From positions 1 through 37,177 of the IMG/VR virus record IMGVR_UViG_3300021376_000154: 37,177 nucleotides of DNA; one strand, written 5' to 3'. A program made the position numbers and the translations under genes. Source of the stretch: a virus. The notes below the pieces were generated by a model that was not told where the DNA came from, ran no database searches, and saw nothing but the letters and a program-made list of their open reading frames with translations. This document shows, one piece after another, positions 3,962-37,045 of this stretch (position 1 is the first letter of the stretch; each line of letters opens with the position of its first letter).

Positions 3962-3969
3962 TATTTATA
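3962..3969 (-). promoter_or_regulatory. T4-type late promoter before gp18
   Basis: The minus strand reads CTATAAATATC, a perfect TATAAATA, in the 57-nt gap between the gp17 stop and the gp18 start, 37 nt before the ATG at 3924. A CAGGGG ribosome-site-like run lies about 12 nt before the ATG. High expression of the sheath and tube genes fits a strong late promoter. Confidence 0.78.
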
Positions 3970-3981
3970 GAATTATGATTT

Positions 3982-5637
3982 TTAACGATACTCCCACATG
4001 TAAGCTCGATCACCATACTCATCTAACTTCCATACATCACCAGAGTTGTCTACAAAGGTATTTTCATGATCATCTAAACCATCTAGAATAAATCCAAAGG
4101 GAGCCATGTCTTGTTCGATCTGGTTTTTTTGTTCCTCATAGATGCGTTTACGAACATCATTCTCAGTCATCTCCTTGAAATAAGGTTGAACAACTAACCA
4201 AGAGAAGATCACAAGACACATTGATAAGTCATCATTTGCACCTTCTTCAGCTTCAAATGATTGATTCTTTTGAATAAAAGTTGTCAGTTCGGAGATAATG
4301 TCATAATCATTGAACATTAACTTGTCATCTTCTACCAAAGTCTTGAGGTTTGAACATCCAATCTTTTTGACTGTCTTTGACATCTTCAATCCAAGTTGAG
4401 ACTTATTACCAGAGAATCCTTGCCCAACAATTTGCCCAGCTCTACCTCGCATGGCGCACATTAAGATGTGATCATACTCAAGATCAAAATGTAGGATATT
4501 TGCAACTTGTTCCCCAATGTCGTTGATTTCAACCAACACATAAGCTTTATTATATGCCTTTGCAACATCTTCAATGATGTTGGGGAACAACATTGGTTTG
4601 ATCTGATTGTTTCGATATTTACCAACTACTCTCCAAGGAAAACTTGTAATATCAAAAATGACGAAAGCCGAGTAGTCACTTTCAACTCCTCTTGCAACGT
4701 CAACTGTCATAATATAGTTATGATCTTCGATTGGTTCTTGATAGATATCCAATCCTTTATTTGATTGAATTGGATCATCAAAAACCATTGACTTGAGTTT
4801 TGATGCAGAAATCAAAGTATCAGAAGATCCAAGGAAGTCACACTCAAATTCCTGTTGGAACTGTTGAGGTGAAGTGTTTGCAATCGTTTGTTCCTTCCAT
4901 TTTGCGTCTCTACCAGGAACTTCACTCCAATGAACCTCTGTTGGGATATATTCGTTTCTACTCCTCTCGGCGTCATGCCAGAGGCGGTAGAAGTGATTCA
5001 TACCCTTAGGGGTAGATACGATAATAACCTTTGTAGTTTTACCAGATGAAATGGTAGGATAAACTGAACTGAAGAAATCGTCAGCGATATGATTTGGAAT
5101 GAACGCAAATTCGTCAAGGAAGATGATATTGAATGACATACCACGAACAGCAGATGCTGATGTGGATGCTGCAATAATCTTTGATCCATTTTCAAGTTCT
5201 AAAGATGCCTTGTTCCAAACCATGACACCCTGTTGCATCCACTTAGGTAGATTCTCATAAGCCAACTGAAGTCTTCCCAAAAGATCTTTTGCAGTTGAAG
5301 CTTTGTTTGCAAGAATACCAACATTCACGTTAGCATTAAAAACAACATAATGCAATAGATAAGATACACAAGTCGTTGACTTACCTGACTGACGAGGCAT
5401 CTTACAGATATTGAATCTGTTATTATGAAAATTATTAATTAATTTTTGTTGAAATGGATAAAGGTTAAAAGAAACTAAACCTTCATCCAGAGAAACAATC
5501 TTGATATAATTTTTAGCAAAGTATACTGGATCATCCTTACACTTTAAAAATTCTTTAATTTGTTCCTCAGTAAATTCAATCGGAACATTTGCTTTCTTAA
5601 GCTGAGGGTTGCCCAAATAATGTTGATCGTTACTCAT
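3982..5637 (-). CDS. 17: Large terminase subunit gp17 (packaging ATPase and nuclease)
   Basis: This 551-aa protein is of T4 gp17 type (610 aa). ATPase domain: Walker A RQSGKST at residues 82-88, Walker B IIFLDE at 171-176 with catalytic Glu176, and the coupling motif STPKG at 208-212. C-terminal RNase H-like nuclease: TVDVARGVESDYSAF with the first metal Asp near 313, LVEINDIGEQV with Glu near 368, and ANDDLSMCLVIF with the third acidic site near 467. It powers DNA translocation into the prohead at the portal gp20 and cuts the concatemer. All key residues are present. The missing ~60 residues compared with T4 are probably at the ends. It overlaps the 81-aa gene by 8 nt and ends before the gp18 late promoter. 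Confidence 0.97.
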   Translation of the reverse strand: MSNDQHYLGNPQLKKANVPIEFTEEQIKEFLKCKDDPVYFAKNYIKIVSLDEGLVSFNLYPFQQKLINNFHNNRFNICKMPRQSGKSTTCVSYLLHYVVFNANVNVGILANKASTAKDLLGRLQLAYENLPKWMQQGVMVWNKASLELENGSKIIAASTSASAVRGMSFNIIFLDEFAFIPNHIADDFFSSVYPTISSGKTTKVIIVSTPKGMNHFYRLWHDAERSRNEYIPTEVHWSEVPGRDAKWKEQTIANTSPQQFQQEFECDFLGSSDTLISASKLKSMVFDDPIQSNKGLDIYQEPIEDHNYIMTVDVARGVESDYSAFVIFDITSFPWRVVGKYRNNQIKPMLFPNIIEDVAKAYNKAYVLVEINDIGEQVANILHFDLEYDHILMCAMRGRAGQIVGQGFSGNKSQLGLKMSKTVKKIGCSNLKTLVEDDKLMFNDYDIISELTTFIQKNQSFEAEEGANDDLSMCLVIFSWLVVQPYFKEMTENDVRKRIYEEQKNQIEQDMAPFGFILDGLDDHENTFVDNSGDVWKLDEYGDRAYMWEYR

Positions 5638-5875
5638 ACATTCTTTTCAAATCTTTCTCCATTTGATCCATATTATTTAATCTTGTTTGCCAACCATTTC
5701 CATCTGTGGTTCCTTTGGCTGGGTTGATGCAAGTATCATCTTCAAATTTGTCACATACTAAACTTGCAAGTTCAGTTTCGTTGCCTTTTTTTTGTGTTGC
5801 AGTCCAGTAGTGTTGATTTTCTATCCAAGTAGCACTACATTTAGGGCAAACTTTTATGCTCATAAGACTTATCAT
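5630..5875 (-). CDS. Small Cys4 (zinc-ribbon-like) protein, function unknown
   Basis: This 81-aa protein has cysteines at 10, 13, 41 and 49 (VCPKC ... LVCDKFEDDTC), which suggests a four-Cys metal site. The rest is polar, with a helical C-terminus (DQMEKDLKRMYE). It overlaps the start of gp17 by 8 nt, so the two are translated together. Neither the ATG at 5875 nor the one at 5863 (MSIKVCPKC) has a good ribosome site; the shorter form is as plausible. The tight overlap suggests a role linked to the packaging motor or its regulation, which is inference only. Confidence 0.72.
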   Translation of the reverse strand: MISLMSIKVCPKCSATWIENQHYWTATQKKGNETELASLVCDKFEDDTCINPAKGTTDGNGWQTRLNNMDQMEKDLKRMYE

Positions 5876-5974: not shown

Positions 5975-7411
5975 TCAATTACAGTTCCAACGACGGAGGG
6001 CTTTATTAATTCTTGAATCAGGATCTCTTGCAGTTTTTGTTGAAGTGAGTTTAGATTTCATGCCGCTCATTCTTGAACAGAATGATTTGCGACGAGATGC
6101 TCTTTTACCTTCTGGATTTTTTTCAGTGACTGCAGTTTGAAGTTTTGATCCTGGATTTTCACGGCGATAAGCATTAACTGCTTTTTGACTCAATCCATCA
6201 GTTTTATCTTTACGATTCACTGATTGCCAATCCTCACCAATCACTCCGATATTGAGTAGATAGTTCTTTCTTCTTTTCTCTTTATCTGGATCTAAAACAA
6301 TTGCAAGAGCTTGTTCTGCAAAATCTTCTTTTGTTGGGAGATCAAATTCTTCAGCAGCAAGAAGAGTTGGTTTAGTTGGATCAATTCTTGAAGGCATATA
6401 AGCGTTTAACAATGCACCTGGATATACCTTATGAATTGCATCCTCCACTTCCTTTCTGGATGGAATTGTAGGAGTCGAAAAGAAGATTTGAAGTTTGTAA
6501 GTTGATCCGTGCCAAGTTAAAATGATGGTATAAGTTCTTCCATACTGTTGAATCTTATCAATATTTTCTTTTACAGAATCAGGAACCATGCGATTTCCTT
6601 TCTTCTTCATACCAACTTGTTTGTGGGTGCTCCAACATGCTTCTGAAACATCTTCATCACTTGACATATAATCTGCTGCAGTATCAATAAAATCTGCTGC
6701 TCTTGTGATCTTAGATTGAACCCATGCAGGAAGTTGTTGATTTGGATTCTTTACAAGTTTTCTTAAAATATTGATTGATCTTTCAATCTGATCAAACTCA
6801 ACATTTGACATGTATCCTTCTTCATCCTTCTTTTTACCAGAAGCAACCTCTTTATGATTTTCTGGAATGAAATCTTCAGACTTGTTCCCCCAATTTTTTG
6901 CTCCCGCTTTACGACACTTGACAAGTGCTCCAGATGCATATGCACTTGGCCAAACACTATAACGAGATTTGACTTTATGATAACAAGCATCTTTAGTACC
7001 ACTACCCTTTCCTGGTCTATCTTTTACTTCTTGTAAGTCTAATTCTTCTTTCATTTTTTTGGGTTTATCTGTTGGAACATAAGTTGGTTTTGCAGCACCA
7101 GTTTTTGCCTGTTGTCCAGGATCTGCTGACTTCTTTCTTCTTGCAGCAGACAACCTTTCTGCCTTCGTCATGCTTGCTCTTTTGGAAGAAGAAACGCATT
7201 TAGGAACTCCTTCTCCAGGTTCATCACTCGCACAGGTTCCACCAGTTACAACGTTTACCCATCCACCTTTACCATCTTTAGAACGCGAACCCTTAAACCA
7301 ATCAGTTAGGCCTTCTTCAAGTTTACAATCTTTCATACCATGTTTAGGGCACATCTTTCCCTTTGGTGTTTTATTACATTTAGATGGCTTACACCCACAA
7401 TGTTCTAACAT
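5975..7411 (-). CDS. Multi-module basic protein with DUF5872-type segment
   Basis: This 478-aa, very Lys/Arg-rich protein lies between gp16 and gp17. Visible modules in order: a Cys/His cluster (C5, C7, C12, C21, C29, H4, H24) that could bind metal; residues about 34-100 with LTDWFKGSRSKDGKGGWVNV and PKCVSSSKRASMTKAERLSA, a DUF6321-like pattern; residues about 128-174 with DRPGKGSGTKDACYHKVKSR and VWPSAYASGALVKCRK, the DUF5872 pattern; WSTHKQVGMKKKGNRMVPDS near 257-276; an alpha/beta segment at about 288-352 (YTIILTWHGSTYKLQIFF, EVEDAIHKVYPGA); and a C-terminal FCSRMSGMKSKLTSTKTARD ending in RRWNCN. Single modules of these kinds occur on different proteins of marine phages. The location suggests a DNA-packaging or head-assembly role, but no function is established to my knowledge. 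Confidence 0.8.
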   Translation of the reverse strand: MLEHCGCKPSKCNKTPKGKMCPKHGMKDCKLEEGLTDWFKGSRSKDGKGGWVNVVTGGTCASDEPGEGVPKCVSSSKRASMTKAERLSAARRKKSADPGQQAKTGAAKPTYVPTDKPKKMKEELDLQEVKDRPGKGSGTKDACYHKVKSRYSVWPSAYASGALVKCRKAGAKNWGNKSEDFIPENHKEVASGKKKDEEGYMSNVEFDQIERSINILRKLVKNPNQQLPAWVQSKITRAADFIDTAADYMSSDEDVSEACWSTHKQVGMKKKGNRMVPDSVKENIDKIQQYGRTYTIILTWHGSTYKLQIFFSTPTIPSRKEVEDAIHKVYPGALLNAYMPSRIDPTKPTLLAAEEFDLPTKEDFAEQALAIVLDPDKEKRRKNYLLNIGVIGEDWQSVNRKDKTDGLSQKAVNAYRRENPGSKLQTAVTEKNPEGKRASRRKSFCSRMSGMKSKLTSTKTARDPDSRINKALRRWNCN

Positions 7412-7436: not shown

Positions 7437-7444
7437 TATTTATG
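7437..7444 (-). promoter_or_regulatory. Late promoter-like element before the 478-aa gene
   Basis: CATAAATA on the minus strand, overlapping the gp16 stop codon and 25 nt before the ATG at 7411. It differs from TATAAATA only at the first base. The leader that follows is T-rich (GGTTTTTTTTAATTTAAATG) with no obvious Shine-Dalgarno site. It may drive the 478-aa gene, the 81-aa gene and gp17. Confidence 0.5.
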
Positions 7445-7850
7445 ATTTCTTGTCAGTTGTGTTACTCTGTTTGATCATCTTAAGAAGATCAGCGGTGGAA
7501 CCAACATACAATGCATTTGTGATATTGTTGGGCCCTTGATATTTGTTATCAAGATCTTTCATATTCTTATGAAGATTCATCAACTTATCAGTCACATCTC
7601 CCAAATTTTTGATCAACTGCCCTGCAACTTCATAAGCTCTTGGATGTTGGGAACTGTCTGCAACTTCAAGAATCCCATCAACAGCCGTTTGCCCTTTTTC
7701 AATCAGGGAATAAAGTTGCCCTCTGGTATATTCGTAGTCAGATTGTTGTTGATTTGTTGGTTTTGTGAGTTCTGCTTTGTCAACTTTTGACTCTACGATT
7801 GAAGTCTCCACATTCAAAGCTTCTCCAATTTTATCGAATGATTTACTCAT
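7440..7850 (-). CDS. 16: Small terminase subunit gp16
   Basis: This 136-aa protein is slightly shorter than T4 gp16 (164 aa). The family motif YEYTRGQLYSLIEKGQTAVD, followed by GILEVADSSQHPRAYEVAGQ (residues about 39-78), is clear. The next segment (LIKNLGDVTDKLMNLHKNMK) is the central coiled-coil helix. The protein forms rings that recognise DNA and stimulate the gp17 packaging motor. It starts 3 nt after gp15 with a GAGG ribosome site inside the gp15 end. Unusually compared with T4, two other genes separate it from gp17. Confidence 0.94.
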   Translation of the reverse strand: MSKSFDKIGEALNVETSIVESKVDKAELTKPTNQQQSDYEYTRGQLYSLIEKGQTAVDGILEVADSSQHPRAYEVAGQLIKNLGDVTDKLMNLHKNMKDLDNKYQGPNNITNALYVGSTADLLKMIKQSNTTDKKS

Positions 7851-10987: not shown

Positions 10988-10995
10988 TATTTATG
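10988..10995 (-). promoter_or_regulatory. Late promoter-like element before gp13
   Basis: CATAAATA on the minus strand, with the following bases giving CATAAATATAG. It overlaps the stop codon of the 61-aa gene and lies 18 nt before the gp13 ATG at 10969. It differs from TATAAATA only at the first base. It probably starts the gp13-gp14-gp15-gp16 unit. Confidence 0.6.
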
Positions 10996-12773: not shown

Positions 12774-12781
12774 TATTTATT
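12774..12781 (-). promoter_or_regulatory. Late promoter-like element before the 505-aa fibre gene
   Basis: AATAAATA on the minus strand differs from the T4 late consensus only at the first base. It is located between the stop of the 109-aa gene and the ATG at 12740, 33 nt upstream. The start codon is preceded by a purine-rich ribosome site (AGGATAGGGC). Confidence 0.55.
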
Positions 12782-13471: not shown

Positions 13472-13479
13472 TATTTATA
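13472..13479 (-). promoter_or_regulatory. T4-type late promoter before the 111-aa gene
   Basis: The minus strand reads CTATAAATAA, a perfect TATAAATA that overlaps the TAA stop of the preceding 75-aa gene. It is 23 nt before the next ATG. An AGGG Shine-Dalgarno-like run lies within the palindrome CCCTTAGGG, 2 nt before that ATG. Confidence 0.72.
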
Positions 13480-22867: not shown

Positions 22868-22875
22868 TATTTATA
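22868..22875 (-). promoter_or_regulatory. T4-type late promoter before gp8
   Basis: The minus strand reads CTTATAAATAAC, a perfect TATAAATA, in the 34-nt gap between the stop of the 1431-aa gene and the gp8 ATG. Only 17 nt separate the element from the start codon and no Shine-Dalgarno sequence is seen there, so the mRNA leader would be very short. It would start a new unit covering gp8 and the DUF4815 giant. Confidence 0.72.
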
Positions 22876-37037: not shown

Positions 37038-37045
37038 TATTTATA
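37038..37045 (-). promoter_or_regulatory. T4-type late promoter before gp25
   Basis: The minus strand reads CTATAAATAC, a perfect match to the T4 late promoter octamer TATAAATA. It lies in the 37-nt gap between the upstream stop codon and the gp25 start, 22 nt before the ATG. In T4 this element is read by RNA polymerase carrying gp55 and driven by the sliding clamp. It probably starts the gp25-gp6-gp7-like-1431aa unit. Confidence 0.75.

Follow-up and report, generated by a model that had tools for sequence, protein, structure and literature searches.

A mosaic T4-GC119-family protein encoded between the terminase genes is a candidate head-cargo polyprotein

A 478-aa protein encoded between the two terminase genes of a virus record most likely serves as head-internal cargo that works like the internal proteins of T4. 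The window (i.e., the whole stretch of DNA analyzed, 37,177 bases) holds its gene at positions 5975-7411 on the minus strand. The reading that we favor, and to which we attach a fair degree of confidence, is that the product is a late polyprotein, probably cut by a gp21-type protease into mini-proteins that would be packaged in the head and injected with the DNA. More specifically, the polyprotein would be made late and enter the prohead core, and the protease would probably cut after hydrophobic-x-Glu in front of modules M2, M3, M5, M6, and M7 during head maturation. The small modules set free in this way, which are largely basic and for the most part have a conserved Cys pair, would remain with the DNA and be injected along with it; like the T4 internal proteins, they would most likely act by binding to nucleic acid or to targets in the host.

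A probable late gene between the terminase genes

The ORF is open from its ATG to the stop codon. It starts 28 nt after the gene for the small terminase subunit (terS, gp16-like; 7440-7850, minus strand; phrog_445, E = 8e-52), and 99 nt separate its end from a Cys-rich ORF of 81 aa (5630-5875, minus strand; phrog_484), which overlaps the gene for the large subunit (terL, gp17-like; 3982-5637, minus strand) by 8 nt. The earlier note had therefore located the gene correctly between small and large terminase. The closest isolate is the lake Synechococcus phage DSL-LC02 (79% identity), whose gene occupies the same locus, with two additional genes ahead of the Cys-rich ORF.

The protein matched phrog_727 (E = 1.3e-99) and phrog_3477 (E = 4e-90), and its significant similarity and common locus place it in the T4-GC119/PHROG 727 family. 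Orthologues of this family (PHROG 727/3477) are present in most of the cyanomyoviruses examined, and in most of them they lie between terS and terL. A tblastn search matched 510 of 50,697 phage records, nearly all of them from cyanophages and pelagiphages; the names tallied were those of cyanophages, pelagiphages, and other marine phages, with no Escherichia phage among them. No similarity to T4 IPI-III, or to any other T4 protein, was found, in keeping with the earlier suggestion of a system not present in T4. We saw no homologue in S-PM2, no match below E = 0.6 in a PDB sequence search, and no informative match in NCBIfam.

An ATAAATA late-promoter core lies 25 nt upstream of the ATG (7437-7443, minus strand). 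On the minus strand of the window, 8 of 11 ATAAATA sites are followed, at a distance of 17-37 nt, by a gene of 100 codons or more (1151-1157, 3962-3968, 7437-7443, 10988-10994, 12774-12780, 13472-13478, 22868-22874, and 37038-37044), a placement never matched by random placement in 2000 trials, and the genes behind these cores include gp18, gp20, and a neck-protein gene. Given this non-random placement, the 478-aa gene very probably belongs to the late genes and has a T4-type promoter core to itself, which supports late expression alongside structural genes. CTAAATA was also considered as a late promoter and was dropped, as it occurred at two sites only.

The earlier note proposed an accessory packaging factor acting with gp16 and gp17, and the usual place of the gene, between the two terminase genes in most of the cyanomyoviruses that we examined, speaks for it. 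We consider this very improbable, because the linkage is not fixed: the family gene precedes terS in P-SSM2, and in P-SSM4 it is found apart from terL, at the cytidylyltransferase locus. Moreover, the late promoter core is separate, the modules stand alone next to capsid genes in T7-like phages, and the virion label found on the family is absent from terminase genes (see below).

Modules and their shuffling

We built profiles for six modules (M2 to M7) and scanned all fetched loci with them; in the window protein, they span residues 35-112, 134-179, 195-249, 259-282, 289-341, and 393-477, respectively. The protein begins with a Cys/His segment (aa 1-33; 7313-7411) containing five Cys. M2 (aa 34-117; 7061-7312; charge +8) resembles the C-terminal half of DUF5872 and has Cys 60 and 72, and M3 (aa 129-184; 6860-7027; +7) resembles its N-terminal half and has Cys 143 and 166. 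M4 (aa 185-257; 6641-6859; -4) is an acidic helical hairpin (AWVQSK) without Cys. It is followed by M5 (aa 258-282; 6566-6640; +4), with the pattern CW..YK..GMKKKGNRMVP, and by the Cys-free beta-beta-alpha-beta module M6 (aa 283-350; 6362-6565; +3), which in single-gene relatives is preceded by a T4-like capsid-targeting leader. After a linker (aa 351-393; -4), the protein ends with M7 (aa 394-478; 5978-6232; +14), which has Cys 445 and 477. All of these coordinates refer to the minus strand. The whole protein has a charge of +31 and a pI of 9.6. The statement that all segments are basic fails for M4 and the linker, and the statement that most contain Cys is right for M2, M3, M5, and M7 but not for M4 and M6.

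The usual order among the fetched loci is M2-M3-M4-M5-M6-M7. Variants include an exchange of M4 and M3 (M2-M4-M3, locus L069), duplication of M5 (loci L057 and L071), M2-M5-M3 in S-CREM2_160, M3-M5 in P-SSM4_156, and M6-M7 in S-CREM2_137. In the S-SM2 orthologue SSM2_109 (L114:3802-5928), a complete DUF192 domain is inserted between M2 and M3 (E = 3.6e-24). Single modules also occur, M7 in proteins of 83-94 aa and M6 in proteins of 104-112 aa, and in CRP-901, M3 and M2 are each a separate small ORF. P-SCSP1a has two adjacent genes whose families are fused in PHROG 11180; hence, fusion and separation both occur. With orders and numbers varying among relatives, the 478-aa protein is a mosaic of small interchangeable modules, as the earlier note had proposed. 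The accompanying claim that each module occurs singly applies to M2, M3, M6, and M7; neither M4 alone nor M5 alone was seen among the fetched loci.

Two side observations concern individual members of the family. The DUF192 insert of S-SM2 lies between MKSVKE|S and EIDIEE|G, and at L009:4519-6506 M7 is encoded in a separate frame that overlaps the remaining polyprotein, indicating a frameshift or a natural split.

At E ≤ 1, the only Pfam match of the 478-aa protein, in which we found no enzyme domain, was DUF6321 (PF19846) at residues 401-475 (E = 1.2e-14; 55.1 bits against a gathering cut-off of 28.5). DUF6321 is the C-terminal FCSRMSGMKSKL module, M7; it had been placed near the N-terminus before and is in fact the last module. 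DUF5872 (PF19197) gave no match in the whole window protein at E ≤ 1, and M3 alone reached 16.6 bits (E = 0.012; cut-off 27.5 bits) in a match to the first third of the family. In the Roseobacter phage CRP-901 (L134:2981-3500), two adjacent small ORFs without annotation specify M3 and M2, and their products, joined in that order, matched DUF5872 over positions 1-113 of 116 with 32.7 bits, above the same cut-off; since this join was assembled from two neighboring ORFs for the search, it tests homology and does not represent a real protein. The N-terminal and DACYH modules (M2 and M3) each correspond to one half of DUF5872, and in the window protein these halves are set apart and swapped in order. 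A DUF5872-like segment is consequently present as suggested, with M3 resembling the start of the family, whereas its other half is M2. A DUF5872 annotation also exists for an algal giant virus (PMC12085832), and it is possible, at slightly less than even odds, that the phage modules of the DUF5872-half type are shared with giant viruses of algae.

Exactly two Cys are found in 70 of 72 distinct M2 sequences, all 62 of M3, 51 of 52 of M5, and 74 of 77 of M7; in the M5 of the window, the second one is gone (VPNC to VPDS). Every one of them thus has its full cysteine complement within itself, which suits separate units, each presumably closed by one disulphide. A zinc-finger reading was rejected, since each has two conserved Cys and the alignments contain no invariant His partner; a disulphide or a half-site is more likely.

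Structure prediction of the whole protein, which the earlier note had recommended, gave beads on a string, with small separate elements joined by flexible linkers; the confidence of this AlphaFold model is low (pTM 0.22), and therefore no overall fold comparison was made. M6 modeled alone (pLDDT 73.9) is a beta-beta-alpha-beta structure whose best solved matches were the crAss001 vertex protein (Z 5.3, rmsd 3.4, 68 residues aligned) and T7 Gp2 (Z 5.0, rmsd 2.3, 50 aligned), followed by ribosomal proteins and an RNA-polymerase-binding protein. As these scores lie below the level that means relationship, we do not claim an RNA-polymerase-binding role for M6.

Candidate prohead-protease sites at module edges

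In gp23 of three cyanophages, FISE|A, LLTE|A, and ILTE|A align exactly at the T4 gp23 site FLTE|A. Candidate sites of this hydrophobic-x-E type lie 0-6 residues before five modules of the window protein: LEE|G after E33, before M2 (7310-7321); LQE|V after E128, before M3 (7025-7036); VSE|A after E257, before M5 (6638-6649); VKE|N after E282, before M6 (6563-6574); and IGE|D after E393, before M7 (6230-6241; all minus strand). M4 has no clear separating site in the window. Overall, 9 of the 10 hydrophobic-x-E positions fall within the 173 linker residues and only 1 within the 305 module residues.

We counted hydrophobic-x-E|[AGSC] in 42 non-redundant homologues and compared the counts with shuffled windows (500 shuffles). 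Such sites stand just before M2 in 19/39, M3 in 19/38, M5 in 19/37, and M6 in 22/29 cases, numbers that were never reached by the shuffles (means of 2-4); examples are VKE|GNLHQWFK, VQE|AKDKPGKG, VSE|ACWVGYK, VDE|ATRLQAQTG, and VSE|GAAWTKK. Just after M3 (2/38), M5 (4/36), and M6 (2/29), their occurrence is at the shuffle level. The strict site is weakly enriched at M7 starts (6/39), and M4 has few sites in the homologues, the site behind it being that of M5. In total, hydrophobic-x-E positions are about as numerous in a protein as chance predicts; the information lies in their placement alone. Most modules, then, begin right after sequences resembling T4 prohead-protease sites, and cutting at the module edges, which the sequences support well, would use these candidate sites. 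Because these statistics were drawn from related sequences, and kinship inflates the counts, we sought an independent test in leader peptides.

Capsid-targeting leaders on relatives

In the T4 record, IPII and IPIII start with MKTYQEFIAE|A, and the first ten residues of IPIII, which include the processing residues, suffice for targeting (PMC9026906). In many relatives, the gene directly after the polyprotein encodes a single-M6 protein whose leader reads MKSFKQFLSE|S or MKTYNQFLSE|S; leaders of this T4-like type include MKSFKQFLSES and MKSFKQLRSDITEA. Across ten cyanophage genomes, a DNA pattern for the leader gave 10 matches versus 0 for a reversed control, 4 of which were the single-M6 protein and another 4 a cytidylyltransferase found in virions. 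S-RIM44 has a single DUF6321 at the polyprotein locus with the leader MKSFKQLRIDINE|S. Internal leaders also occur in polyproteins, namely, the T4-GC119 protein of S-ShM2 (SShM2_108; KKTYEEFVSE before DUF6321), those at loci L066 and L075, and that of P-RSM1.

Single DUF6321 proteins from viral contigs allowed a comparison between phage groups. On T4-like contigs, they carry a leader of 12-13 residues ending in hydrophobic-x-E at the module (e.g., MKSFKQLRSDITE|A), and outside such contigs, they start at the module itself (MAKTPAWQRKEGKNP). The raw split was 16/20 T4-like versus 1/39 others (Fisher p = 7e-10). The four leaderless "T4-like" exceptions were tied to T4 solely by a distant terL of ~23-25% identity (for two of them, the check extended to the entire contig), and the contig of the one leader-bearing "other" has a T4-like terL (68%) and gp21 (65%). 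The corrected split is 17/17 T4-like contigs versus 0/42 others; these contigs were reached by two queries, one per kind, and the counts include related sequences. DUF6321 also occurs without a leader in T7-like cyanophages and pelagiphages, and its function therefore cannot require cutting.

In the window, no targeting leader was found, N-terminal or internal, in any frame, and thus the route of the window protein into the prohead is not explained by a leader. The protein might instead be a head-internal chain of basic modules that stays uncut and, for instance, neutralizes or orders DNA, its sites being inherited edges that are no longer cut. The missing leader, the strong positive charge, the orthologues in virions, and the less usual P1' residues at 3 of the 5 window sites (V, N, and D) are consistent with such a chain. 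We nevertheless judge it unlikely, as the sites are kept before modules even though linkers vary and are rare after modules, and the same sites terminate true leaders of single-module relatives. We thus continue to prefer a polyprotein that is probably cut. Whether it amounts to a shuffling polyprotein, by which one gene would load the head with different injected mini-proteins, most of them two-Cys units bounded by protease sites, that recombine between phages as units, is a more tentative proposal, to which we give slightly less than even weight.

Several further leaders were noted along the way. Cytidylyltransferase/NMNAT-like virion proteins carry MKSFFQFLSE|A, MKKFSAFLKE|A, MKNFSSFLTE|A, or MKRFLQFLSE|A (loci L115:32762-33988, L003:2403-3554, L005:21609-22469, L150, L157, and L158). 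Published papers left open whether this enzyme is carried by the virion, and a T4-like leader would explain its packaging there. In S-CRM01 (L154; record positions 139045-139074 onward), a 131-aa protein that looks acetyltransferase-like by eye starts with MKTFDEFLTE|G and is a candidate injected protein. Two genes between terS and the polyprotein also have such starts: SCRM01_033 of S-CRM01 (L136:3133-3792; MRTFESFLAE|A) and S-CREM2_136 (L005:4302-5015; MQTFSMFFSE|D), the latter listed in the virion table with 8 peptides. A second possible leader type, S-x-WR-x-D/E-L/F followed by hydrophobic-x-E, directly precedes M7 or M5 at loci L068, L063, L043, L004, and L144 (e.g., FSNWREELGLTE|DWQ).

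Orthologues in virions

Virion proteomics, which had been named as a check, places orthologues in purified virions of S-CREM2 and, by records, of S-SCSM1 and S-SM1. The virion MS table of S-CREM2 (PMC10665884) lists 4 unique peptides for ORF137 (M6 and M7, between terS and terL; coverage of 4.1% only) and 7 for ORF160 (M2, M5, and M3). The orthologue gp029 of S-SCSM1, a phage with 45 proteins detected by MS (PMC9602691), is labeled a virion protein in its record. In addition, the note "similar to Synechococcus phage S-SM1 protein" accompanies T4-GC119 in the S-SM2, P-SSM2, P-SSM4, and S-ShM2 records. This note also marks the virion proteins gp13, 14, 15, 18-21, 23, and GC190, and in the stretches of cyanophage records that we checked, it is absent from terS, terL, polymerase, and replication and recombination genes. 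Given these notes and the published set of 41 S-SM1 virion proteins with orthologues marked (PMC3037559), we infer that T4-GC119 is one of the 41. Records in which orthologues carry a virion label have none on terS and terL. The M7 (_192) and M6 (_191) proteins of S-SZBM1 were not detected. Judging by its orthologues, the window protein appears to be a virion component. For the cutting by gp21 that was also to be checked, the module edges offer candidate sites; no cut peptide was seen.

These MS data come from whole virions and do not distinguish head from tail, and tail-fiber-like genes are among the neighbors at the locus, so that a capsid-surface or tail structural protein might be considered. 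We find it very improbable, since relatives carry capsid-targeting leaders; furthermore, the capsid of P-SCSP1u lacks a decoration protein (PMC10575957), and in relatives of this phage a lone DUF6321 gene neighbors the capsid gene. A head-internal location would fit better.

Aquatic systems everywhere contain T4-like cyanophages. With the rules for leaders and sites, DUF6321, DUF5872, PHROG 727/3477, and T4-GC119 acquire a role that can be tested. The leader rule may also explain the recurrent cytidylyltransferase in cyanophage virions. If cutting is true, the family would form a cargo-delivery system with modules swapped as units and offer a possible route to load cyanophage heads.

Comparison with known systems

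We found no description of internal head proteins or targeting leaders of T4-like cyanophages in the literature; a review found on capsid-targeting leaders deals with T4 only. The T4-GC119 family of Sullivan et al. 2010 (PMC3037559) is the same family at the same locus, a hypothetical protein tied by records to the S-SM1 virion; its text, as far as consulted, describes no modules, leaders, protease sites, or function. In Pfam terms, M7 is DUF6321 and M3 and M2 resemble the DUF5872 halves, which stand apart in reverse order; both families are of unknown function.

In the giant phages SPN3US and phiKZ, internal head proteins are likewise processed behind a short motif whose last residue is Glu. 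In SPN3US, 13 of 14 prohead-protease sites remove N-terminal propeptides (PMC10052503), whereas the sites of the window protein would separate modules that are retained. Polyvalent proteins (Iyer et al. 2017, PMC5512222) are also multidomain, mosaic, and likely virion-delivered and processed; they carry enzymes, often including their own metallopeptidase, and the window protein, lacking any enzyme domain that we could find, does not belong among them.

The closest parallel is with T4 IPI, IPII, IPIII, and Alt, which have a leader and gp21 processing, the IPs being small basic head cargo as is proposed here. A hydrophobic-x-E site before the mature part is found, by sequence, at five modules, and the protein is basic with orthologues in virions. 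The N-terminal leader is absent from the window protein, which, having no similarity to the IPs either, is therefore not filed as one; it is present on M6 and M7 single-module relatives, matching the IP form M-K-S/T-F/Y-x-x-F-hydrophobic-x-E with A, S, or G following. Unlike the IPs, the window protein strings several modules on one chain, with candidate sites between them and paired Cys within them.
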